Made by a program: the position numbers and the translations under genes. A stretch of 35,017 nucleotides of DNA from Rhodospirillaceae bacterium (lineage in GTDB: Bacteria > Pseudomonadota > Alphaproteobacteria > Rhodospirillales > Rhodospirillaceae): positions 1 to 35,017 of the forward strand of contig JAPKDQ010000014.1 in assembly GCA_028822445.1 (NCBI GenBank), given 5' to 3'. Positions 1-21,526 of this stretch are shown piece by piece. Below the pieces are notes generated by a model, which saw nothing but the letters and a program-made list of their open reading frames with translations, was not told where the DNA came from and did not search any database. Within the stretch, counting starts at the first letter, position 1. Each line of letters begins with the position of its first letter.

Positions 1-191
1 GGTCTCCGCGCGATAACGTCTACCGCAATTTGGCTAGTCACGATCAGCGCATCAATGTTGTCTAGAGCTGTCTTGGGCCAAGGCAAAGGACGAGACGCCA
101 TCACGGGACATGCGAGCACCTGGTGCCCGCAGCGATCGAAAGCTCGAAACATCTCAAAATCATATTCGACGGGACGCGTATTGATGATCAT
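1..191 (-). CDS. hemD: Uroporphyrinogen-III synthase, N-terminal part (runs off window)
   Basis: This is the first 63 codons of a minus-strand gene whose ATG at 191-189 overlaps the hemC stop codon (ATGA), so it is the next gene of the operon. The translation begins [15 protein letters not shown] and continues with GHQVLACPVMASRPLPWP and a segment ending DALIVTSQIAVDVI. This is the usual HemD N-terminal pattern: the TRP motif in the first strand, then GHxVLxxP, then DxLIxTSxxAV. HemD closes and isomerises hydroxymethylbilane to uroporphyrinogen III. Its place directly after hemC, in an operon headed by cobA, fits supply of the siroheme precursor. The C-terminal three quarters lie outside the window. 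Identification rests on the N-terminal pattern plus context. Confidence 0.8.
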   Translation of the reverse strand, partial: MIINTRPVEYDFEMFRAFDRCGHQVLACPVMASRPLPWPKTALDNIDALIVTSQIAVDVIARR

Positions 192-1108
192 GCCGATAAA
201 AGTCGTTTAGCTGGACCACGCAAATCACGTCCAAGGCGTACACCAATCAAATCGGCATCGTCGACTAGTCCGTTCACCTGTCCGGACCACTCTTGAACAC
301 CATCTTCAGAGACAAGCAACGCAGATATCTCTAGTCGATTTTCATGAACCCGGGCTATTGCCCCTAAAGCAAGAGCATCTGGCTTCGGCAGAGACCTTAA
401 CAAAGCACGCTCCGCCGTCACCTCAGCATAGGTTGGACGGTGATTTATCAACTGCAAAGCCCGCCGCGCGACGAAATTATCTGAATGACAAATAATACCA
501 ATAGCGCCTTGCGCCGGGTCGGGCGGCAGGACGCTTAGTGAAAATACCTCCGCAGCATGAGCCAATAGCCCGAGCCGGGCTAACCCAGCATAAGCGAGGA
601 CCGTCCCATCAAATTTTTTGTTCTCCAGCTGCGCGACCCTCTCTTCGACATTCCCTCGTAACAGGGCAAACTGGAAATCTGGCCGAAGCCGTCGCAACAG
701 GGCCCGCCTCCGGATCGACGACGAACCAAAAACAGCCCCGGTAGGCATGGCATCAACGTTCCTAAAACCGGGCGCGATCAGCACTTCTCTCGGGTCTTCC
801 CGCTTAAGGGTGGCCCCGACAACCAAGCCTGCTTGCATCGTGGGCGTCATGTCTTTCATGGCATGCACAACGCAGTCGACCTCGCCCGTTGCCACCCGGG
901 CATCCAAATCATCAGTGAAAACCCCACGACCACCCAGATCTTCTAGACTGGATGATCGGTTCCGATCGCCAGGCGTATCGAAAACGACGACCTCAATGTT
1001 GTCCTGTAGGTCAGGGGCTTGGCGACACAGATCCGTGCACACCATCTCGACTTGCACGCGGGCCAGACGACTGGGCCGGGTTCCAATACGCAACTTAGGC
1101 CATTGCAC
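188..1108 (-). CDS. hemC: Hydroxymethylbilane synthase (porphobilinogen deaminase) homologue lacking the cofactor cysteine
   Basis: The family joins four porphobilinogen units into hydroxymethylbilane, working on a dipyrromethane primer held by a thioether to a conserved cysteine. Seen here in 306 aa: IGTRPSRLA (residues 8-16), VVHAMKD with the catalytic aspartate at 86, GSSSIRRR (128-135), RGNVEERV (151-158) and DPAQGAIGI (197-205). Length and order are normal. The expected LEGGCQxPxGA segment after VTAERA reads [11 protein letters not shown] (240-250), so the cysteine is Asp244 (codon 379-377). The usual GGKG loop is GGRG (59-62). The GTG start overlaps the hemA stop by 14 nt, and the stop overlaps hemD as ATGA. 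The family is clear, but activity as a normal deaminase is doubtful because of the missing cysteine. It could be a specialised paralogue. Confidence 0.88.
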
Positions 1109-2390
1109 AAGACATCTCCCTTAATCGCCACGCCCGAGACAGAACGTCGGACAAACCACTGGCTAAGTCATCAATCATGGCATCAGTATGAAGTGGTGTG
1201 GGTGTTAGGCGCAGGCGCTCTGTTCCAGGATCAACCGTCGGAGAAAAAATTGGTTGGATGTAGAGGCCGTATTCGTCAAGTAGCAATCGAGCCGACTCTC
1301 GTGTCACGAATAGATCACCGATAATCATTGGAACAATATGAGAGGGTTCATCGCGAAACGGGATGCCGCGTGCCCGCAGAGCCTCTTTTAAACGCAAAAC
1401 TTGCCGCTGGTGCTTCGACCGCAAGACAGCAGACTGACGGACATAACGGATAGACTCTAGAGCCGCACTGGCTAGAACAGGAGACAAAGCCGTCGTAAAT
1501 ATAAATCCAGGCGCAAAACTACGAATATAGTCGATGCCACGACGGGAACCTGCGACGTAGCCACCCATGACGCCGAAGGCTTTAGCCAACGTACCTTGGA
1601 TGTAGTCTACATCCTTCGCAACGCCTTCTGCCGCAGCGACTCCCGCCCCCTCTTCTCCATAAAGACCAACAGCATGGACTTCGTCGACATAGGTCAGAGC
1701 ATTGTATTGCTTTGCTAATGCTACAATCGCCGCGAGAGGAGCGACTGTGCCATCCATCGAATAGACAGACTCACACACAATGATTTTAGGTCTAGCGGGA
1801 TCCAAGCTAGCCAAGAGTTGCTCAAGATGCTGGACATCATTGTGACGGAAGATTCTCTTTTCAGCCTTACTGTGCCGGATTCCGGCAATCATAGATGCGT
1901 GGTTCATTTCGTCAGACAATAGCGCCACGTTCGGCAACCGCGACGCTAGCGTGCTTATGGACGCCTCGTTGGCAACATAGCCGGACGTGAACAGAAGCGC
2001 GGACTCTTTGCAGTGCAGTGACGCGATTTCTTCTTCGAGTTGGGCATGAACATTATGAGTTCCAGCGATATTGCGGGTCCCACCGGCACCCGCACCGAAA
2101 CGCGTAACCGCGTCATGCAATGCAGACTCTACAACCGGGTGCTGCCCCATTCCCAGATAGTCGTTCGAACACCAAACGGTTACTTCTTTCTCGCGACCCT
2201 GCCCGTGAAGTAGAGCCTTAGGAAATGCGCCCGGCAATCTCTCCAGCCGTGCGAAATCACGGTAAAAGCCCGCATCTTTCAGCGCAGTCAATTCCTGATC
2301 GAAAGTCTCATCATAGTTAAACGTGGTCGCTGATGGAGCAGGGCCCAACTTCTGAAGCACCAACGGTGATGATTTAGATTGACCAGTCAC
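1095..2390 (-). CDS. hemA: 5-aminolevulinate synthase
   Basis: This PLP enzyme condenses glycine and succinyl-CoA to 5-aminolevulinate, the first step of tetrapyrrole synthesis by the C4 route of alphaproteobacteria. Visible in 431 aa: [11 protein letters not shown] near residue 24, the substrate segment [13 protein letters not shown], the glycine loop [32 protein letters not shown] (the PLP-ring aspartate is in DEVHA), and the lysine loop [16 protein letters not shown] with the PLP lysine. It starts at GTG (2390) with GAGG seven bases upstream, nine bases after the cysH stop, and overlaps hemC at its end. The first 23 residues are an extension compared with typical family members of about 405 aa. 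Placement inside a sulfite-reduction operon is unusual; it may be a second, siroheme-dedicated copy. Confidence 0.95.
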
Positions 2391-2399
2391 ACAACACCT

Positions 2400-3098
2400 C
2401 TACGCCGCGGGATTCAATACAGGGCGATGGATGCCGCATTCAGTTTTAGCTTGCCCTTGCCAACGGCCTGCGCGTTGATCCTCTCCGGCCCCTACCGGCA
2501 ACGTGCACGTAAAGCAACCTATGGAGAGGTACCCCTCCCTCACCAAAGGGTGCGGGGGTAGACCGTGTGTTTCGAAATACGCGTCAAGGTCGGGCTTTGG
2601 CCAGTTCAACAACGGGCTAAGAATAAGACGGTCATCTTGGGTTTGAACGCCTGACGCCTGTTTTCGATCAGTATTCTGAAATTTCTTTCGACCGGTAACC
2701 CAGGCGTCAAACCCTTTCAGGGCACGGTTCAACGGCCAAGTTTTTCGGATCGTGCAGCATCGGTCCGGGTCCTCGCGCCACAACGCGCCTAACCGGTCCT
2801 CAGTCTTGATGTCTTCTGTCTCAGGGTGAATCGTACGAAGATTGTTGAGGCCAAGACGTGCCGCAAGATCAGCCTGATAATCATGGGTCACGGCAAAAAG
2901 TTTGCCAGTATCAAGAAAGATCACCGGAATGTCTTTGCTCACTTGCGCTGCCATATGCAGCAACACCGCTGACTCAGCGCCAAACGATGAGACCAGCGCC
3001 ATACGGTCGCGATAGGTGTCTAAAGCATGAGAGATCATGTCTATGCCTGACAATCCGCCGAGGCGAAAACGGGCGCTATGACGAGAGACCTCGGTCAT
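2400..3098 (-). CDS. cysH: Thioredoxin-dependent adenylylsulfate (APS) reductase, Fe-S type
   Basis: Reduces adenylylsulfate to sulfite in sulfate assimilation. The 232-aa protein has the PP-loop-like start SSFGAESAVLLH (37-48), the cysteine pair DRCC (C114, C115), the pair CFTC (C195, C198), and the C-terminal KTECGIH with redox-active C221. The four cysteines CC plus CxxC are the [4Fe-4S] signature of APS-type reductases, so APS rather than PAPS is the likely substrate. The ATG overlaps the stop of the DUF934 gene as ATGA, showing translational coupling. Its product, sulfite, is the substrate of CysI upstream in the same operon. hemA follows after nine bases. Confidence 0.94.
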   Translation of the reverse strand: MTEVSRHSARFRLGGLSGIDMISHALDTYRDRMALVSSFGAESAVLLHMAAQVSKDIPVIFLDTGKLFAVTHDYQADLAARLGLNNLRTIHPETEDIKTEDRLGALWREDPDRCCTIRKTWPLNRALKGFDAWVTGRKKFQNTDRKQASGVQTQDDRLILSPLLNWPKPDLDAYFETHGLPPHPLVREGYLSIGCFTCTLPVGAGEDQRAGRWQGQAKTECGIHRPVLNPAA

Positions 3099-3613
3099 TC
3101 CGCCACAACCTCTACTGCGGAGCGGCGTAAATCTCTGACCTGACTGACATTGCTATCTACGGCGGCCTGATAAGCAATCGTATACGCCCCTAAGGAAGTC
3201 TTGAATTGTTTGACAGGAAACTGAACTGGCACAACAATCGTTGAGAACCCACAGCGAGCGAGAAACAACGCTTGGTCGGGTAGAATATCCCCGGATGCCC
3301 GCAAGTCGCCAGAGAACCCATAGTCACGCCGAACGGTCACTGCTGTGGAAAAAGGTCGGCCGTCCTTGAAATTTGGGAAGACAAGGTCGATCAGGCCGAT
3401 GTGCCTTGCATGATCAGCAATCTCTCCTATCTCGTCATTGACAGTCAGACGGACACCGATACGAGATAGCGATTTCTGATCCAGAGTTTCAATATGCTCT
3501 TTCAAACTGGCAAATGAGAGGATTACTGAATCTAGGGAACGGGTTTCTTCAGCGACCTCAACGTCGCGCCAAGTTTGATCCACATTCTCGCCTCGGATGT
3601 TAATTACTGTCAT
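3095..3613 (-). CDS. DUF934 family protein of the sulfite-reductase operon
   Basis: A 172-aa soluble protein with the DUF934 pattern: FPNFKDGRPFSTAVTVRR, GFSGDLRASGDILPDQALFLARCGF and a C-terminal YQAAVD. Members of this family are found next to cysI and cysH in many proteobacteria and are presumed to help sulfite reduction, but their biochemical role is not established. The start at 3613 overlaps the end of cysI by 14 nt, and the stop overlaps cysH by 4 nt, so it is made together with both. No catalytic residues can be pointed to. Confidence 0.88.
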   Translation of the reverse strand: MTVINIRGENVDQTWRDVEVAEETRSLDSVILSFASLKEHIETLDQKSLSRIGVRLTVNDEIGEIADHARHIGLIDLVFPNFKDGRPFSTAVTVRRDYGFSGDLRASGDILPDQALFLARCGFSTIVVPVQFPVKQFKTSLGAYTIAYQAAVDSNVSQVRDLRRSAVEVVAE

Positions 3614-5255
3614 AGAGTCGCTCCTTAAACGGAGCGTGCCCGGTGCGTTCTAGGGTCTGAGAAAACAGTTCCCCGGTACTTCTTACGCTCAAGTATGTCG
3701 AAATAACGGTCTCAACTGCATCAACAATTCCGTCTTCATCAAAACCAGGCCCAACAATCTTTCCAACCGCGGACTCACCATTGCCTTGGCCGCCAAGGGT
3801 CAACTGGTATCGCTCCTCACCCCTCTTATCGACACCGAGGATGCCAATGTGACCAGCATGGTGATGTCCACAGGCGTTGATGCAACCGGAAATCCGAATG
3901 TCGAGAGGCCCGATATCGTGCTGGCTTTCGAGATCAGAAAAACGTTCGCTGATACGCTGTGAGATAGGAATAGACCGGGCATTAGCAAGAGAACAATAGT
4001 CCAGCCCGGGGCAAGCAATAATATCCGTGGCGAGCCCAATATTCGGTGTGGCGAGATCTAAACGTTTTAGCTCACTCCACAATACAAAGAGATCAGCTTG
4101 ATGCACATGGGGTAAAACCAAGTTTTGTGTATAAGTTACCCGCACTTCACCCAAGCTAAACCGGTCCGCTAGATCCGCAATCGCATACATCTGTTCTGCG
4201 GTGGCATCACCGGGTATGCCACCGATTGGCTTTAGAGAAATAGTGACGATCGCATAGCCAGGGGTTTTATGAGCATGCGTATTAGAGTCCGACCACCGCC
4301 GCATCTGGGGAGATTCTTCAATGCGTTCTTCAAGCCGAGCCTTAACATCTTCATCCGCCTGCAAATAAGGCACAGAAAACATATCCCGAATGCGATTAAT
4401 CTCATCGGCTTCGACTACAAAAAGCGCAGGGTCTAGTCGTTCAAACTCCGCATCAACCTGAGACGTAAACGAATCCACGCCCAAGCTCTTCACTAATATT
4501 TTTATACGCGCCTTATAGATATTATCCCGGCGCCCATGGAGGTTATAGATGCGCAAGACGGCATCAAGATATCGCAGAAGGTCTTTAGCCGGCAAAAACG
4601 AGTTTATAAGCGGTGCAACGATAGGCGTTCGGCCTTGCCCGCCACCAACGTAAACTTCAAAGCCAAGCTCCCCAGTATCACTGCGTATAATCTTAAGGCC
4701 AATATCGTGAAATTTAATCGCGGCTCTATCCGCGTCGGCCCCAGTCACTGCAAACTTGAATTTACGCGGCAGATAAGAGAACTCAGGATGAAACGTGGAC
4801 CACTGACGGATTATTTCCGACCACACCCGCGCATCATCCACTTCATCTGCTGCTGCACCGGCGTAGGGGTCAGCCGTAACATTCCGAATGCAGTTTCCGC
4901 TGGTTTGGATAGCGTGAAGGTCAATCTCAGACAAATCGAACAAAAGATCAGGCGCAGTGCTCAGCTCTATCCAATTGTATTGAATATTTTGTCGCGTAGT
5001 GAAATGGCCGTACCCACGGTCATATGTTTCCGCGATATAGGCAAGCTTCCGCATCTGATCCGATGACAACGCACCGTAGGGTATGGCCACCCTCAACATA
5101 TAGGCGTGCAGTTGAAGGTACAGACCATTCATCAGTCTCAATGGCTTGAACTGATCTTCCGTTAACTCGCCATCAAGTCTGCGCCGAACTTGATCACGAA
5201 ATTCTGCAACGCGCTGATTAAGGAGCGACTTATCGATAGTATCATAAACATACAT
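3600..5255 (-). CDS. cysI: Siroheme-dependent sulfite reductase hemoprotein (nitrite/sulfite reductase family)
   Basis: This 551-aa enzyme carries out the six-electron reduction of sulfite to sulfide with a coupled siroheme and [4Fe-4S] centre. Visible: an N-terminal ferredoxin-like half-domain with GYGHFTTRQNIQYNWI (81-96), the anion-site segment TSGNCIRNV (118-126), and the four cluster cysteines in CPGLDYC (C415, C421) and CINAC (C458, C462). There is no fused flavoprotein, so electrons probably come from ferredoxin or a separate reductase. Nitrite reduction is possible in this family, but the neighbours cysH and DUF934 argue for sulfite. It starts at ATG 5255, six bases after the DUF2849 gene. 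Confidence 0.93.
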   Translation of the reverse strand: MYVYDTIDKSLLNQRVAEFRDQVRRRLDGELTEDQFKPLRLMNGLYLQLHAYMLRVAIPYGALSSDQMRKLAYIAETYDRGYGHFTTRQNIQYNWIELSTAPDLLFDLSEIDLHAIQTSGNCIRNVTADPYAGAAADEVDDARVWSEIIRQWSTFHPEFSYLPRKFKFAVTGADADRAAIKFHDIGLKIIRSDTGELGFEVYVGGGQGRTPIVAPLINSFLPAKDLLRYLDAVLRIYNLHGRRDNIYKARIKILVKSLGVDSFTSQVDAEFERLDPALFVVEADEINRIRDMFSVPYLQADEDVKARLEERIEESPQMRRWSDSNTHAHKTPGYAIVTISLKPIGGIPGDATAEQMYAIADLADRFSLGEVRVTYTQNLVLPHVHQADLFVLWSELKRLDLATPNIGLATDIIACPGLDYCSLANARSIPISQRISERFSDLESQHDIGPLDIRISGCINACGHHHAGHIGILGVDKRGEERYQLTLGGQGNGESAVGKIVGPGFDEDGIVDAVETVISTYLSVRSTGELFSQTLERTGHAPFKERLYDSN

Positions 5256-5261
5256 GGAAAA

Positions 5262-5558
5262 TTAACCTTCTGGACCGCCGACGGGGCGTGACTGTTGGTC
5301 ACCGACCGTTGGGCCGTGGCTGCGGATGCGCTCCCTCAATCGGACCGGTCGTTTGCCTCCGATTGAACTAACTTCGACCTCATAGCACCCGACAACGATG
5401 TTCCGTTCCTCAGCACGCCGGCTAACACGAAGGGCTTCATCAAGTTCATCACTAGAGACAATTTTAGCGTCATCGACTTGGCTGGACCATTGCTCGTCAT
5501 CGGTAAAGTAGACGACAGATCCATCATCGAGGCGGTTTGCGGAAAGTACAAAAGACAT
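5262..5558 (-). CDS. DUF2849 family small protein
   Basis: A 98-aa protein beginning MSFVLSANRLDDGSVVYFTD, which matches the DUF2849 pattern (ANRLxDGxVVYL). These proteins occur in alphaproteobacteria between the siroheme methyltransferase gene and the sulfite reductase gene. The function is unknown; a role in siroheme handling or insertion is only inferred from position. It lies three bases after cobA and six before cysI. The last 25 residues are rich in Arg, Gly and Pro and look disordered. Confidence 0.87.
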   Translation of the reverse strand: MSFVLSANRLDDGSVVYFTDDEQWSSQVDDAKIVSSDELDEALRVSRRAEERNIVVGCYEVEVSSIGGKRPVRLRERIRSHGPTVGDQQSRPVGGPEG

Positions 5559-5561
5559 AGC

Positions 5562-6410
5562 TTACCCCATTGGGTGATGAACCCACGCGAAAGGCTCGCT
5601 GGGTTTAGAGGTCATATGAACAGGAAGAACGGGTTCGGTATCAAGGCCACCTAAAGCCGCCACATCACCAATGACCAATAAAGCTGGCGTGACGATATCA
5701 TAACGAACCAAATCTATCGTAAGGGCCTTGAGCGTCGTCTTAACAAGCCTTTGGCCTGGCAGTGTCGCCCGCTCAATCACCGCGACTGGTATCGATCCAG
5801 GAACACCGACGCCAAGTAATTGGCTAACAATAGTTCCGGCGTTAGAAACGCCCATGTAAACAACTAGTGTGCGCTTCGACGAGACGAGACCATCAAGGTC
5901 GGGAATTGAACCATCCAATGTATGCCCGGTGACAAACGTAACGGACGTTGCAATATCGCGATGGGTCAACGGTATTCCGGTCTCAGCGGCGGCGGCGATC
6001 GCCGACGTTACGCCTGGAACGACCTTTACCGAGATGCCAGAGGTGCGCAGGTCTGCAAGCTCTTCACCGCCACGACCGAATATGAAGGGGTCGCCTCCTT
6101 TGAGGCGGACAACCTGATACCCCGCCAACGCATCGTCCCGCATTCTGTTTTGAATTTCTTGTTGCGGCATAGCGCTAAACCCTTTGCGCTTGCCAACAAA
6201 GACCCGTCGAGCCTTCGGATTTATGTGCGTCAACACGGATGAATCAACCAAACTGTCGTAGTAAACGACGTCAGCGCTGTCCAATGTCTTAGCCGCCCGG
6301 ATGGTCAGTAAGTCATAAGCTCCGGGGCCAGCTCCCACCAATGAGACAGAGCCTTTACTCGCTGTGATTGAGCCCGACCTTGGCGTATTTACAACATTCA
6401 TGACGCGCAC
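5562..6410 (-). CDS. cobA: Uroporphyrinogen-III C-methyltransferase (SUMT)
   Basis: Adds two methyl groups from S-adenosylmethionine to uroporphyrinogen III to give precorrin-2, the branch point to siroheme and cobalamin. Motifs seen: VSLVGAGPGAYDLLTIRA near residue 22, VRLKGGDPFIFGRGGEE, GVTSAIAAAAETGIPLTHRD and VTFVTGH, and a C-terminal ALLVIGDV. All are typical of the stand-alone 280-aa SUMT; there is no fused CysG dehydrogenase/ferrochelatase domain. It is the first gene of the eight-gene operon, consistent with making siroheme for CysI. The later enzymes that turn precorrin-2 into siroheme are not in the window. Start is uncertain between GTG 6410 and ATG 6401. Confidence 0.94.
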   Translation of the reverse strand: MRVMNVVNTPRSGSITASKGSVSLVGAGPGAYDLLTIRAAKTLDSADVVYYDSLVDSSVLTHINPKARRVFVGKRKGFSAMPQQEIQNRMRDDALAGYQVVRLKGGDPFIFGRGGEELADLRTSGISVKVVPGVTSAIAAAAETGIPLTHRDIATSVTFVTGHTLDGSIPDLDGLVSSKRTLVVYMGVSNAGTIVSQLLGVGVPGSIPVAVIERATLPGQRLVKTTLKALTIDLVRYDIVTPALLVIGDVAALGGLDTEPVLPVHMTSKPSEPFAWVHHPMG

Positions 6411-8377: not shown

Positions 8378-9415
8378 CTAGGAAACGAGGGGGTCTGGCT
8401 TAATGGCAATAGTCTTATCGAAATGAGACCAAACGCCGCTATCACCGTGCCACTCACCAGTTGTCGCGTTTTTAGAATATTCCGTTGAACGCGCTTCGAA
8501 GAAGTTAGCATGCTCAACCCCGTTTAGAATTTCTTCCAGCCATGGAATCGGATGCTCTTTAATATTGTAGACGGGATCCAGACCAAGCTGCCCTAACCGC
8601 CAATCCGCGATATAGCGTATATAGGACTGAATATCCGTTGGAGTCATGCCGTTGATCGGGCCCATTTCAAACGCCAGGTCAATGAACTTATCTTCCATAT
8701 CAACGACTGTTTTAGCGCAATCAACAATATCGTCTTTGACAGACTGCGTTAAACACTGTGTCTCCTCACAGAATGTGTGGAAGAGCTTGATCATACCTTC
8801 GCAATGCAGGCTTTCGTCGCGAACCGACCACGACACGATTTGCCCCATGCCCTTCATCTTGTTTTGGCGTGGGAAATTAAGCAGCATCGCAAAGCTCGCA
8901 AACAACTGGAGGCCTTCTGTAAACCCTCCAAACATCGCTATCGTTCGAGCTATTTCAGCCGGGTTATCAACTGTAAATTTTTGCATATAGTCGTGTTTCG
9001 CAGCCATCTCGTCATATTCAAGGAACGCTGTGAACTCACTGTCTGGCATGCCGATCGTTTCCAATAGCAGAGCATACGCCGCAATGTGGATGGTCTCTAT
9101 ATTGGAGAACGCGGCCAACATCATCTTGATCTCTGTCGGCTTAAAGACGCGGCTATAGCGCTCCATGTAATTATCGTTCACTTCCACATCCGACTGGGTG
9201 AAGAAGCGAAAAATTTGGGTCAGAAGATTACGCTCAGAATCCGTGAGATTATTTGCCCAATCTTTGCAGTCCTCGCCAAGGGGCACCTCTTCCGGCATCC
9301 AGTGAATTTGCTGCTGCCGTTTCCAGAAATCATGCGCCCAGGGGTAGCGAAAAGGCTTGTAGCTGTGACTTGGCGTCATCAGGCCAGGAAGGACTTGGGG
9401 CGTGATTTTGTTCAT
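8378..9415 (-). CDS. nrdB: Ribonucleoside-diphosphate reductase, beta (radical) subunit
   Basis: Small subunit of class I ribonucleotide reductase; it houses a dimetal centre and a stable tyrosyl radical that starts catalysis in NrdA. In 345 aa the metal ligands are visible as E107 and H110 in NIETIHIAAY, E167 in GFTEGLQL, and E201 and H204 in RDESLHCEG, with a further acidic ligand in QSDVEVND. The radical tyrosine is Y114, four residues after H110, so this is a normal tyrosine-radical enzyme. It starts 55 bases after the nrdA stop and is read from the same transcript. It ends convergently with galE. Confidence 0.95.
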   Translation of the reverse strand: MNKITPQVLPGLMTPSHSYKPFRYPWAHDFWKRQQQIHWMPEEVPLGEDCKDWANNLTDSERNLLTQIFRFFTQSDVEVNDNYMERYSRVFKPTEIKMMLAAFSNIETIHIAAYALLLETIGMPDSEFTAFLEYDEMAAKHDYMQKFTVDNPAEIARTIAMFGGFTEGLQLFASFAMLLNFPRQNKMKGMGQIVSWSVRDESLHCEGMIKLFHTFCEETQCLTQSVKDDIVDCAKTVVDMEDKFIDLAFEMGPINGMTPTDIQSYIRYIADWRLGQLGLDPVYNIKEHPIPWLEEILNGVEHANFFEARSTEYSKNATTGEWHGDSGVWSHFDKTIAIKPDPLVS

Positions 9416-9470
9416 CGGATTTCCGGTTCAGCACTCTGGCTGATGCATAAAATTAACAGTCAAAGTCAGG

Positions 9471-11360
9471 CTACTGACAGGCTAGACACTCTTCGTAATC
9501 AGTTCGTTCATTAAGCGCTAATTCCGCTTCCGGCCAGGCCCTCGTGTTATCCGCCTCAACTCCGCCAGCAAAGCCTGCTCGTTGCACGGATTTGGAACGA
9601 CAATAATACAAACTCTTGAGGCCCGATTCCCATGCTTTCCAGTGCAGCATCATGAGATCCCACTTATCAATATCCGAGGGTATGAATACGTTAATGGACT
9701 GACCCTGACAGATAAACGGTGTGCGATCTGCTGCCATTTCGATAACCCAGCGCTGGTCGATTTCAAAAGCCGTGCGGTACACTGCTTTTTCGTCCTCTGT
9801 TAGGCTATTCAGATGCTGAATAGATCCTTCATTTTCGAGAATCGAATGCCAAGTTCCCGTTGTGTTTAGGCCCTTGCTCTCCAGCAATTCGGTCAGGTGC
9901 TTATTCTTGACCGTGAAGGAACCAGACAGCGTTTTGTGAGTGTAGATATTGGCCGGAATCGGCTCGATGCAGGGACTCACACCGCCACAGATAATGCTAA
10001 TCGACGCGGTTGGTGCAACCGCCATTTTATGGCTAAAGCGCGCCATGAGGCCAGTCTCAGCTGCATCAGGGCACGGGCCGCGCTCTTCTGCTAACGCAAC
10101 AGACGCAGCATCCGCACCCTTGCGAATATGTTTAAACATGCGGGTATTCCAAGACTTAGCCATCGCGCCTTCAAATGGAACACCGCGTTGTTGCAAGAAG
10201 GAATGAAAACCCATAAGGCCTAGGCCAACGGAACGCTCTCTCATTGCAGAGTACTTCGCCTGCTTCATGCTATCAGGCGCACGATCAATAAAGTCCTGCA
10301 AAACATTGTCGAGGAAGCGCATCACATCTTCGATAAAGCCTTCTTCTTTCGACCACTCATTCCACTTCTCTGCGTTCACAGACGACAAGCAGCATACCGC
10401 CGTACGATCCTCATCGAGATGGTCGGGGCCCGTGTGCAGCATAATCTCACTACACAGGTTAGACGTTGTAACTTTAAGCCCCAGGTCACGCTGATGCTTC
10501 GGCATGTGGCGATTCACGGTATCGGAGAAAATGAGATACGGCTCACCCGTTTGAAGGCGTAGCTCCAAAACCTTCTGCCACAGCTCGCGGGCATTAACTG
10601 TTTTACGAACAGAATCGTCTTTCGGGCTCAAAAGGTCGAATGATGCGTCATCGCGAACGGCTTCCATAAAGGCGTCCGTGATATTAAGTCCGTGATGGAG
10701 GTTCAAGCTCTTCCTGTTGAAGTCACCGGAAGGTTTTCGAATTTCCAAAAACTCTTCAATTTCTGGGTGATGAATATCTAGATAGACCGCTGCCGAGCCA
10801 CGGCGCAAAGACCCCTGCGATATCGCGAGAGTAAGAGAGTCCATAACGCGCACAAACGGAATAATACCCGATGTATGCCCACAGTTTTTAACTTTCTCTC
10901 CGATGGATCGAACCTTACCCCAATAAGTGCCGATGCCGCCGCCATTGGAGGCGAGCCAAACATTTTCCATCCAGGTGTCAACAATGCCATCCAGGTCATC
11001 GTTAACTGAATTCAAGAAGCAAGAAATGGGAAGGCCACGATCTGAGCCACCATTCGACAATATTGGTGTCGCAGGCATGAACCAGAGCCTGGACATATAA
11101 TCATAAATGCGCTGGGCATGATCGAGGTCGTCTGAATAAGCTAACGAAACACGCGCAAACATGTCCTGATAAGATTCACCAGGCAGCAAATATCTATCTT
11201 CCAAAGTCGCCCTGCCGAAATCGGTCAAAAGCGCGTCACGAGACCGGTCAACCGTGATCGACGGCACAACCTCAAATACTTTGTCTTCAGAACGTTGTTG
11301 CTCAGCTGGTTGGGGTGAGTGGGTGACAGTTTTCTTATCAGCTTCCAGCGCGTAGGCCAT
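9471..11360 (-). CDS. nrdA: Ribonucleoside-diphosphate reductase, alpha (catalytic) subunit
   Basis: Large subunit of class Ia ribonucleotide reductase, reducing ribonucleoside diphosphates to deoxy forms. ATG 11360 is preferred because GAGGGA lies just upstream; an in-frame ATG 18 codons earlier has no such site. This gives 629 aa. Seen: substrate cysteine in PISCFLNS (C114), NLCSEI holding the thiyl cysteine C303 with N301 and E305, the partner cysteine in VCCLSS, the radical-path tyrosine pair in SLYYCRS, and the redox tail CLAC at the C-terminus. The protein is short compared with the 760-aa enterobacterial form, and no full N-terminal ATP-cone is apparent, so classical dATP inhibition may be absent. 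Two NrdR-type boxes lie upstream. Confidence 0.95.
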   Translation of the reverse strand: MAYALEADKKTVTHSPQPAEQQRSEDKVFEVVPSITVDRSRDALLTDFGRATLEDRYLLPGESYQDMFARVSLAYSDDLDHAQRIYDYMSRLWFMPATPILSNGGSDRGLPISCFLNSVNDDLDGIVDTWMENVWLASNGGGIGTYWGKVRSIGEKVKNCGHTSGIIPFVRVMDSLTLAISQGSLRRGSAAVYLDIHHPEIEEFLEIRKPSGDFNRKSLNLHHGLNITDAFMEAVRDDASFDLLSPKDDSVRKTVNARELWQKVLELRLQTGEPYLIFSDTVNRHMPKHQRDLGLKVTTSNLCSEIMLHTGPDHLDEDRTAVCCLSSVNAEKWNEWSKEEGFIEDVMRFLDNVLQDFIDRAPDSMKQAKYSAMRERSVGLGLMGFHSFLQQRGVPFEGAMAKSWNTRMFKHIRKGADAASVALAEERGPCPDAAETGLMARFSHKMAVAPTASISIICGGVSPCIEPIPANIYTHKTLSGSFTVKNKHLTELLESKGLNTTGTWHSILENEGSIQHLNSLTEDEKAVYRTAFEIDQRWVIEMAADRTPFICQGQSINVFIPSDIDKWDLMMLHWKAWESGLKSLYYCRSKSVQRAGFAGGVEADNTRAWPEAELALNERTDYEECLACQ

Positions 11361-11614
11361 ATATTTCCCTCGGTGTTCAAGCGCCCAGACATGTGTCGGT
11401 CGCGTACATTTCAACCCAGCGCTGATTGAGGAATTCCAGAGACTCGAACCCTATTCGCCACCAGACAATCCTTGAAAAACAAGGAATTAGAAGCGCCGCT
11501 CAGGCAACGATCGTTACAAGTCAATGGTTTGGCTGTTTGAACCTACAAACCAGTCCCTAAAACAGCCCCCTCAGCCCCCTTATGCCCATGATCTAGTTAC
11601 CTAGGACACAAGCG

Positions 11615-19110: not shown

Positions 19111-19408
19111 CAGCAACCGCACACGATGACGAAGCGTTAGAGTAGCACCGAACCTAATCTGTCACTCGCCATCCCCTTCGTCAGTGGACTAGCTTTCGCC
19201 TTGTTGAGCAATTAAATGGCCCGACGACGAAATGTTTCGCGCAAGCACGCTGAAGGAGCATAAAATTTTGGACAATACGGTTCAGGACTTAGTGGCCAAG
19301 CAAGAATCGTACTAGTGTCACTGTCCCACAACTAACCCTTTGCAGTCGACGGTCGCGGCCTTAAGCTTTCATCCTCATCATCGCACCCCGCACCAAAGAG
19401 GAACCGTC

Positions 19409-20083
19409 ATGCATGTAGAACCAGGATATGTTGCGCCGGCGAAAGTTGCCTTAGCCAACGTAGGCGCCCTAGGCGTTGTCATGTGGACCTGCGCGAAACA
19501 TATAAAAAACTTCTCTGTTGACCCGTTTCTTATCGTGAAGAGCCTGATGGCTGCATCCGTCTTCTCACTTTTCATGCAAAGTTTTCATGTGCCTGTTGGC
19601 CCGTCGGAATTGCACTTTGTCGGCGCAATGGCGATATACTTAACCCTCGGTTTTACACCGACGTTGCTGGGGTTTGGCATTGGCTTAACCCTGCAGGGCG
19701 CTGTATTTGAGCCCGCCGATTTACTCCACCTTGGCGTCAATAGTTTGTCGTTGATGCTGCCGCTGATCAGCGTGCACGCCATTTCTGGGCGCCGCGTTTT
19801 CAATCGCGATAGCGGCGAAAAAATATCATGGGCACAGATCGTCAAGCTAGATGCCATGTACTATGCTGGCGTGACTAGCATGGTTGGCTTTTGGTTGATG
19901 ATTAGCGACGTAGCGACACCAGTCAGCGCATGGGCGACCTTTGCATTATCCTACTTGGTCGTCGTGCTCTGCGAGCCAATCATAACCTACGCGGCAGTAA
20001 GGGGACTCAAAGCGTTTGAGGGTCACGCACTGGTTAGTCGACTGACGGCTGTTCACAGCCTGTCTCTGCGAGAACCGGTTTAG
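19409..20083 (+). CDS. cbiM: Solitary CbiM/NikM-type cobalt (nickel) permease
   Basis: A membrane protein of 224 aa starting MHVEPGYVAPAKVALANVGA. ATG 19409 is chosen because AGAGGA lies upstream and because the family begins MHIxxG, where the N-terminal Met-His helps bind Co2+ or Ni2+. The segment HVPVGPSELHFVGAM and the run LTLGFTPTLLGFGIGLTLQG match the core of the energy-coupling-factor substrate protein CbiM. Six or so spans are visible. The partner genes cbiN, cbiQ and cbiO are not in the window. It lies 166 bases before the cobalt-type nitrile hydratase genes on the same strand, so it probably supplies cobalt to that enzyme. No cobalamin riboswitch was recognised upstream. Confidence 0.82.
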   Translation: MHVEPGYVAPAKVALANVGALGVVMWTCAKHIKNFSVDPFLIVKSLMAASVFSLFMQSFHVPVGPSELHFVGAMAIYLTLGFTPTLLGFGIGLTLQGAVFEPADLLHLGVNSLSLMLPLISVHAISGRRVFNRDSGEKISWAQIVKLDAMYYAGVTSMVGFWLMISDVATPVSAWATFALSYLVVVLCEPIITYAAVRGLKAFEGHALVSRLTAVHSLSLREPV

Positions 20084-20249
20084 GCTAGTCCGCTTAATCT
20101 AGGCAGGTACGCCCTCGCCGATATCGAGCCATATCGATTTTGGATATGTCGCAATGGAGTCAACGCGATAGTCAATAGACGCTGCCGCCAGTAGCTAAGC
20201 CACAGAAAACTGGGCTACACTCCTGGCACAGATATAATGGAGTAAGACA

Positions 20250-20852
20250 GTGCCTCATGATTCCCACGACCATACGGACCCGCCTTCAGACCTCGCCCTT
20301 CGCGTCAAAGCCTTGGAGACTGCGCTAACCAGGAAAGGTTACGTGGACCCAGACGCAATCGATGCCGTGGTGGATACATTCGAGACTAAGGTAGGGCCGC
20401 GCAATGGCGCAGCGGTTATTGCGAAGGCCTGGACAGACCCAGCATTTAAACGACGGCTACTCGATGATGCCTCTGCAGCTTGCGCAGAACTGGGCTTTAG
20501 CGGCCAACAGGGCGAACAGCTTAAAGTAGTCGAGAATACAGACGCCGTGCATAACATGGTCGTTTGCACCTTGTGCTCTTGCTACCCGTGGCCTGTCTTG
20601 GGATTACCACCCAGCTGGTACAAGAGCCACGCCTATCGCTCACGCGCCGTGATTGAGCCGCGGGCGGTCCTTCAGGAATTCGGGGTCGACATTCCAAACA
20701 ATAAAGAAGTCCGTGTCTGGGATTCGACAGCCGAACTGCGTTACTTGGTTCTTCCAGAGCTCCCCGCCGGAACCGACGGCTTCACCGAAGATGCGCTTGC
20801 AGAACTCGTGTCGCGGGACTCCATGATTGGCACGGGTGTGGCACAAGCATGA
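20250..20852 (+). CDS. nthA: Nitrile hydratase alpha subunit, cobalt type
   Basis: Hydrates nitriles to amides with a non-corrinoid metal ion held by three cysteines. The metal loop is [10 protein letters not shown] (C106, C109, S110, C111); threonine after the first cysteine marks the cobalt form, while serine there marks the iron form. Two of these cysteines are normally oxidised to sulfinate and sulfenate. The N-terminal [19 protein letters not shown] and the later [19 protein letters not shown] are standard family segments, and 200 aa is the usual length. It starts at GTG 20250 with GGAG eight bases upstream. The stop overlaps the beta-subunit ATG (ATGA). Thiocyanate hydrolase, a relative, is less likely given the gene set. 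Confidence 0.95.
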
Positions 20853-21526
20853 CCAACTCAGTTCATGACATGGGCGGCATGCACGGCTTCGGAGAGATTA
20901 GCCGTGAGGAAAACGAGCCCGTCTTTCATGCTGAGTGGGAGCGAAAAATATTTGGCATGATGATGACCAGCCTCGGGCCATTCCAGGTCAACCTAGACAA
21001 CGTGCGGTCCCGCATGGAAAGCGTGCCACCAACCACATACTTAAAGCTCGGGTATTACGACAAGTGGCTAATCACGTTGGAAGAGTTGGCGATTGAAAAA
21101 GACGTCGTCTCGCGCGATGCCTTGGCGGCGCTCATGGCAGGCCAAGATGTTCAGTTGACCCGTGACGTTGACCCGTTTCCAGCGGATGGGATGCTAGCTT
21201 TTCTGGCGACCGGCGCAACAGCCGCTCGTCAAATCGAAACGGCCGCCGTTTTTAAGGTTGGCGATCAGGTCCGAGCCAGAAACCTAAACCCAGGGAGCCA
21301 CACGCGACTGCCTCGGTATGTACGTGGACACCTGGGCATCGTGATCGCAGATGCAGGCGGGCAGATCTATCCGGACACCAACGCAACCTTCTCTGGAGAA
21401 GGACCGGAGCGGCTTTATACAGTTCAGTTCCAAGCTACAGAATTGTGGGGGAACGAAGCCAATCCAAAGGACACAGTATGCGTAGACCTTTGGGAACCAT
21501 ACCTTGAGGCAGCAAGGACACCATGA
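20849..21526 (+). CDS. nthB: Nitrile hydratase beta subunit
   Basis: The structural partner of the alpha subunit; it forms part of the active site and supplies arginines that contact the oxidised cysteines. In 225 aa the beginning [20 protein letters not shown] and the following [12 protein letters not shown] are diagnostic. The helix [21 protein letters not shown] contains the arginine region and the YYxxW pattern. The C-terminal barrel has [15 protein letters not shown] and ELWGNEA. The ATG overlaps the alpha stop and the TGA overlaps the activator ATG, so the three are made in fixed ratio. Confidence 0.95.

Follow-up and report, generated by a model that had tools for sequence, protein, structure and literature searches.

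In this study, we found that 13 genomes of a single bacterial family encode a HemC, the homologue of hydroxymethylbilane synthase (HMBS), that lacks the cysteine holding the dipyrromethane cofactor, and that this protein is encoded within a siroheme operon. We lean toward the reading that the Cys-less HemC is a working, though divergent, hydroxymethylbilane synthase, which would be dedicated to siroheme and would act without a thioether-bound dipyrromethane primer. Judging from its operon and its sole-copy status, it probably produces hydroxymethylbilane, which suggests that uncultured bacteria might be able to build the four-ring product without the usual covalent primer. Because the cofactor cysteine, one defining feature of the family, is absent, we did not file the protein as an ordinary member. 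According to the literature, hydroxymethylbilane synthase assembles its product on a dipyrromethane that is anchored to a single cysteine (PMC7242693, PMC8561815): four porphobilinogen units are added to the dipyrromethane on Cys242, and the tetrapyrrole is then hydrolyzed off (PMC7242693). In a saturation map of human HMBS the cofactor cysteine is described as intolerant to mutation (PMC10577081), and another paper credits it with drawing the cofactor past the catalytic Asp (PMC8561815); thus, a working Cys-less enzyme would need an unproven mechanism. Among the matches listed in our literature search (titles and abstract openings, with subscription journals thinly covered), there was no report of a natural Cys-less HMBS. 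If our reading is true, a natural, conserved and apparently sole-copy Cys-less enzyme would mean that the chemistry does not require a covalent primer, would provide a natural test case for chain-length counting, and may link the loss of heme synthesis to a loosening of constraints on the early tetrapyrrole pathway.

The window, that is, the whole stretch of 35,017 nucleotides from a Rhodospirillaceae bacterium that was analyzed, represents one entire contig (C28). Its hemC gene (188..1108, minus strand) has a GTG start and encodes 306 amino acids. By profile the protein is a clear member of the hydroxymethylbilane synthase family, matching TIGR00212 with 253.5 bits over residues 6-293 (cut-off 164), PF01379 with 210 bits (cut-off 22.1) and the C-terminal domain model PF03900 with 30 bits (cut-off 26). 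It is homologous to known HemC proteins, such as those of E. coli (1ah5) and human (3ecr), over nearly the full length, is of similar length and has the same neighbors in the pathway. The phmmer alignment to E. coli HMBS (PDB 1ah5) had no gap at LEGGCQVPIGS and placed Cys242 opposite Asp244 of the window protein (codon 377..379, minus strand; window positions 377-418 represent residues 231-244), so that an earlier note, made from the sequence alone, had both located and read this site correctly. The catalytic Asp86 (E. coli Asp84; codon 851..853, minus strand) was kept here as well as in all 13 Cys-less and all 52 canonical proteins of the family, and Lys85 and Arg11, 133, 134, 151, 157 and 178 were also intact. 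The only cysteines were those at positions 24, 28, 79 and 207, as the note had listed.

We then read the cofactor site in all 66 HemC matches detected in 64 of the 73 genomes of the same family. The scores were separated by a gap, with 14 matches at 356 bits or more and 52 at 254 bits or less; the cysteine was present in every one of the 52 low scorers, whereas none of the 14 high scorers had it. One high scorer, a second HemC of genome G004 that also has Asp244, was excluded. Over 8.6 kb, its contig (C28 of G004) matched G005 at 99.6% identity (L036 vs L037), and we therefore judged it to be probably contamination in a bin mixing two species. This left 13 distinct Cys-less sequences from 13 genomes. 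Eight of them formed subclade A (seven genomes of the window organism's own genus plus G009), in which the site reads LPxPDA. The other five (G029, G030, G063, G064 and G096) formed subclade B, whose loop is two residues shorter and contains neither Cys nor Asp. Thus, the Asp whose conservation among relatives the note had raised was present in subclade A (8/13) but not in the remaining five members, and Asp244 was rejected as a clade-wide replacement.

No second, canonical HemC was found in the window organism's own genome, which is 98.93% complete. In a PF01379 search of 10 clade genomes, nine had the Cys-less HemC only, and G029 also possessed a canonical copy beside HemE; G063, G064 and G096 each had a single HemC match in the family census. 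Apart from G029, the clade genomes (12 of the 13) therefore yielded no HemC other than the Cys-less protein; four of the 13 are less than 90% complete. The canonical HemC proteins of the same family (52 genes, including the second copy of G029) share the family assignment and the catalytic Asp with the clade, but all 52 have the cysteine as well as Ala at position 197, and the clade has neither.

A comparison of the 13 Cys-less sequences with 34 canonical rows (four of 38 were dropped as copies) showed which residues were kept, lost and exchanged. First, Asp86, Lys85, Arg11, Ser13, Gln19, Ser131, Arg133, 134, 151, 157, 178 and Gln200 were kept in all 13, and the clade thus resembles known HemC in its catalytic Asp and in those active-site arginines that were checked. 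Second, no cysteine column was common to the 13 sequences. Cys28 was the only cysteine of the Cys-less copy in G029, and a single cysteine, aligned at position 53, was present in the copy of G096. Cysteines close to the site in L002 (two before), L009 (two after) and L075 (one after) were not shared, and the two matches (of 13) to a loose cysteine-site motif must represent Cys166 of L003 and L007 rather than the site itself. A moved cysteine anchor was therefore rejected, and the shifted cysteine that would have undercut the note's claim was looked for without success: the anchor has not been relocated to another conserved cysteine. Third, 16 positions were clade specific and nine canonically conserved positions were lost. 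Asp197 replaced Ala, Glu108 replaced Asp, and Asp66 occurred, in all 13 members and in none of the 52 controls (with one gap at position 66); Gly168 in place of Ala was present in all 13 and in one control, and Arg61 in place of Lys (E. coli Lys59, near the active site) in all 13 and in four controls (one gap). In these changes, and in a cofactor turn that is either rewritten or shortened, the clade differs from known HemC. In addition, the equivalent of E. coli Thr127 was Ser in 12 of the 13, that of Ser81 was Ala83 in all eight members of subclade A (Ser in all 34 canonical rows compared), and that of Gly199 was Ala in one member. Cys79, seven residues N-terminal of the catalytic Asp86, was present in 8/8 sequences of subclade A and 0/5 of subclade B. 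The C-terminal domain model had no match in the Cys-less copy of G029 and scored below the cut-off in that of G030.

Among the clade-specific positions we singled out Asp197 (codon 518..520, minus strand; Asp in 13/13, Ala in 52/52 canonical), since it places a new carboxylate in the hinge between domains 1 and 2, where it aligns with E. coli Ala195 (phmmer, 1ah5); this choice is a judgement, as it is one of 16 such positions. In E. coli, residues 194-199 are described as the domain hinge and 240-243 as the cofactor turn (PMC3945110). Human V215 is probably the residue next to the Asp197 position, and it is reported to lie in the hinge near the active site without contacting the cofactor directly (PMC3738108).

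If a cell makes siroheme with only the Cys-less HemC, the chain must start without the thioether, or the primer must be held in another way. In the mechanism that we propose, the retained Asp86 would deaminate porphobilinogen and the arginine-lined cleft would hold the chain during its growth, as in E. coli. Synthesis would start either from porphobilinogen itself or from a primer bound by some means other than a thioether, and the new carboxylates (Asp197, in the hinge of every member, and Asp244, in subclade A) would take over the cysteine's role in positioning the chain start through contact with the aminomethyl group of the starting end, either as a salt bridge or as a labile ester. We favor a porphobilinogen start with a carboxylate hold, since the aminomethyl group could then be kept in place by a salt bridge, with no need for a stable bond. 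In its full form, in which the enzyme is a primer-free polymerase that uses the first porphobilinogen as starter, holds its aminomethyl end by Asp197 (plus Asp244 in subclade A) and releases the chain after four rings, the proposal is tentative, and we would give it rather less than an even chance. If it is true, there would be no hexapyrrole on a permanent dipyrromethane and no covalent cofactor on the protein, and the first product would be either an aminomethylbilane or hydroxymethylbilane. An aminomethylbilane-type intermediate does not seem far-fetched, since older work, judged by its title, dealt with the chemical and enzymic conversion of aminomethylbilanes to uroporphyrinogens (cited in PMC8698207).

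The same residues allow for another explanation, namely that dipyrromethane is still bound covalently through a different side chain, as an ester on Asp197 or Asp244, or through Cys79 in subclade A. The clade-wide presence of Asp197 and its absence from the controls would agree with such an anchor, as would the position of Cys79 just ahead of the catalytic Asp in every member of subclade A. On the other hand, Cys79 is missing from the whole of subclade B and the clade as a whole shares no cysteine column, so the two subclades would need different cysteine anchors. An alkyl ester of the dipyrromethane-carboxylate kind should be labile and would thus be better suited to transient anchoring than to holding a cofactor permanently. 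We thus consider this explanation improbable, though it is the strongest of the alternatives to a working enzyme without the covalent primer.

The working enzyme is favored by its gene context. The window contains, in operon order and all on the minus strand, cobA as the first gene (uroporphyrinogen III C-methyltransferase; 5562..6410; TIGR01469, 273.8 bits), a DUF2849 protein of cys operons (5262..5558; PF11011), a cysI-like sulfite/nitrite reductase hemoprotein (3600..5255; PF01077 and PF03460 above cut-off), a DUF934 protein of cys operons (3095..3613; PF06073), cysH (phosphoadenylyl-sulfate reductase; 2400..3098; profile matches), hemA (5-aminolevulinate synthase; 1095..2390; TIGR01821, 583.2 bits, with a GTLAKAFG motif containing the presumed PLP lysine) and the Cys-less hemC, with intergenic gaps of -14 to 9 bases. 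Next, also on the minus strand, comes hemD (uroporphyrinogen III synthase; 1..191), whose start codon overlaps the hemC stop and of which the contig start leaves only the 5' part; it was identified by translation and by overlap with contig C12. The window and contig C12, which belongs to the same assembly, overlap by 55 bases within hemD (window positions 1-55, at the end of C12). The rest of hemD lies on C12, and hemB and a SirC-like gene come after it. In the cysI-like protein, the two cysteine pairs that make up the siroheme/4Fe-4S motifs (Cx5C and Cx3C at residues 415 and 458) are intact. All of its NCBIfam matches were under their cut-offs, and sulfite is its likely substrate in view of the neighboring cysH.

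The relatives showed the order cobA-DUF2849-cysI-DUF934-cysH-hemA-hemC-hemD-hemB-sirC as far as their stretches reach (those of G001, G002, G030 and G096 end short of cobA). In G064 the operon was split across two contigs, in G001 cysD- and cysNC-like genes were inserted between cysH and hemA, and DUF2849 was undetected in the operon stretch of G005. HemD, HemB and the SirC-like protein of G004 were identified by the PF02602, PF00490 and CysG-N models. The SirC-like protein scored 61.7 bits, just below the NCBIfam cut-off of 62.3, and HemD appeared divergent, with 65.5 bits to PF02602 and only 62.2 of 223 bits to the best NCBIfam model. The co-occurrence of CobA, SirC-like, CysI-like, CysH, DUF934 and DUF2849 proteins is similar to the CysG-type siroheme branch and the cys operon, from which the arrangement differs in that 5-aminolevulinate synthase, HemB, the Cys-less HemC and HemD lie within one operon. 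Genes from 5-aminolevulinate (ALA) synthesis to siroheme are thus located together with a siroheme enzyme, and from this content, including the siroheme-type reductase, the operon could plausibly run from glycine and succinyl-CoA through ALA to siroheme and then to the reductase that uses it. This agrees with the role in a siroheme operon that the note had proposed for HemC. Scans of the window yielded no Rfam matches, and no promoter or terminator signal better than in shuffled sequences.

In a tree of 48 rows, all 13 Cys-less sequences fell on one branch with support of 100/100, and the canonical HemC proteins included were placed outside it. Provided that the clade does not contain the root, the cysteine was lost long ago, since both subclades lack it. 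Within subclade A, the gene is under purifying selection: the median pN/pS of the Cys-less hemC was 0.227 (8 genomes), compared with lower values for CysI (0.156, 7 genomes), HemB (0.205) and HemA (0.209) and higher values for SirC (0.269), CysH (0.312, 7 genomes), CobA (0.315, 6 genomes), DUF934 (0.399, 7 genomes) and HemD (0.414), all ratios being uncorrected with synonymous sites near saturation.

Several of these observations count against our best explanation. The stem of the Cys-less branch is long (1.03; treekit warned of long branches), and it is accompanied by the 16 clade-specific positions and by the nine lost canonical ones, including Lys61; Ala83 in subclade A and the C-terminal domain results for G029 and G030 weigh on the same side. 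The long stem, the clade-specific changes and the loss of a residue regarded as indispensable could instead point to a protein that no longer makes hydroxymethylbilane and has another step or a regulatory job, the precursor being obtained otherwise; clade cells may import siroheme or a precursor instead of synthesizing it. The divergence of the operon HemD of G004, together with the highest pN/pS among the nine operon genes measured, would also fit. However, the clade retains both the catalytic Asp and the arginines, and in the 12 genomes where the Cys-less protein is the sole HemC found, HemB is also present and would seem purposeless without a HemC. The protein is moreover adjoined in the operon by HemD, CobA and the siroheme-type reductase. 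A changed function therefore appears unlikely to us, and slightly more so than a different covalent anchor. Of the options that the note had offered, a different reaction is probably the least likely, since the operon supplies HemB before this step of the pathway and HemD, CobA and the SirC-like protein after it.

Evidence on pathway use comes from the tetrapyrrole genes elsewhere in the clade genomes. Searches for HemE were negative in 12 of the 13 (again with four of the 13 less than 90% complete), the exception being G029, and none of the 13 gave a match to the siroheme decarboxylase family PF17805. Thus, neither tested heme route appeared complete in the 12 genomes, and the production of heme from siroheme was rejected. 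In G029, the canonical HemC lies beside hemE and the Cys-less copy in the siroheme operon. The distribution of HemE, canonical HemC and PF17805 therefore suggests that the Cys-less enzyme goes with siroheme and not with heme. Against a role confined to siroheme, CobA also starts cobalamin synthesis. There was one HemB per clade genome, besides a fragment on the suspect contig of G004. Ferrochelatase was above cut-off in 11 of the 13 genomes (all but G009 and G063; for example L113, G000:C8:441868-442806), which fits poorly with a simple loss of heme synthesis; imported porphyrins may be used. Ferrochelatase without HemE was also present in the control genomes of Bacteroides ihuae and Lactococcus lactis. 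In the relative G015, four adjacent PF17805 stretches were observed (G015:C2:110253-112043; L145-L148), which may represent a cluster for heme d1 or for siroheme decarboxylase.

The missing HemE could also be taken to mean that the gene is decaying as its lineage gives up tetrapyrrole synthesis, and no match to HemB, HemC or HemE was found in G011 and G062 of genus g6 (99% and 98% complete), which perhaps lack tetrapyrrole synthesis altogether. Decay is nevertheless very improbable: there was no internal stop within any of the 66 HemC matches, the pN/pS of the Cys-less hemC is near those of HemA and HemB in subclade A, and a loss common to both subclades would be old if the root is outside the clade. 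The note's interpretation was partly supported: the undecayed gene, the lack of a substitute conserved cysteine, the sole-copy status and the siroheme operon spoke for it, and Asp244 did not hold as the replacement throughout the clade. Finally, a sequencing or alignment artefact, for which nothing speaks except that the assemblies are drafts, can be dismissed, because the Cys-less site is seen in 13 different sequences, each from a separate genome, and aligns to solved structures without gaps.

We also searched beyond the family, using strict thresholds that would miss unrelated losses of the cysteine. In 317 genomes of the order (E 1e-84 or better) there was no additional Cys-less member, and all 11 matches outside the clade had the cysteine; samples of 385 genomes of the class and 398 of the phylum at 1e-88, with the first few candidates per genome scored, also yielded no additional member. 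A scan of a contig collection gave no match with a single HemC protein as query and nine loci with the subclade A alignment. Seven of the nine were apparently subclade A contigs already in the set (one of them the suspect contig of G004), and two were canonical with the cysteine. A plasmid search returned 78 records, all with less than 60% identity. One contig of a viral collection (L110, IMGVR_UViG_3300031456_000215) encodes a HemC-like protein of 312 amino acids as read, in which the cysteine is present and the hinge motif is altered to PAVGAAV.

Two other features of the window were observed. At positions 19340-21526, a gene for a CbiM-type cobalt uptake protein directly precedes the genes for nitrile hydratase alpha and beta chains (PF01891, PF02979 and PF02211), and the alpha chain contains the metal motif CTLCSC, which we take to be of the cobalt type. 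Genes for the large and small subunits of ribonucleotide reductase are located at 8378-11414 on the minus strand.
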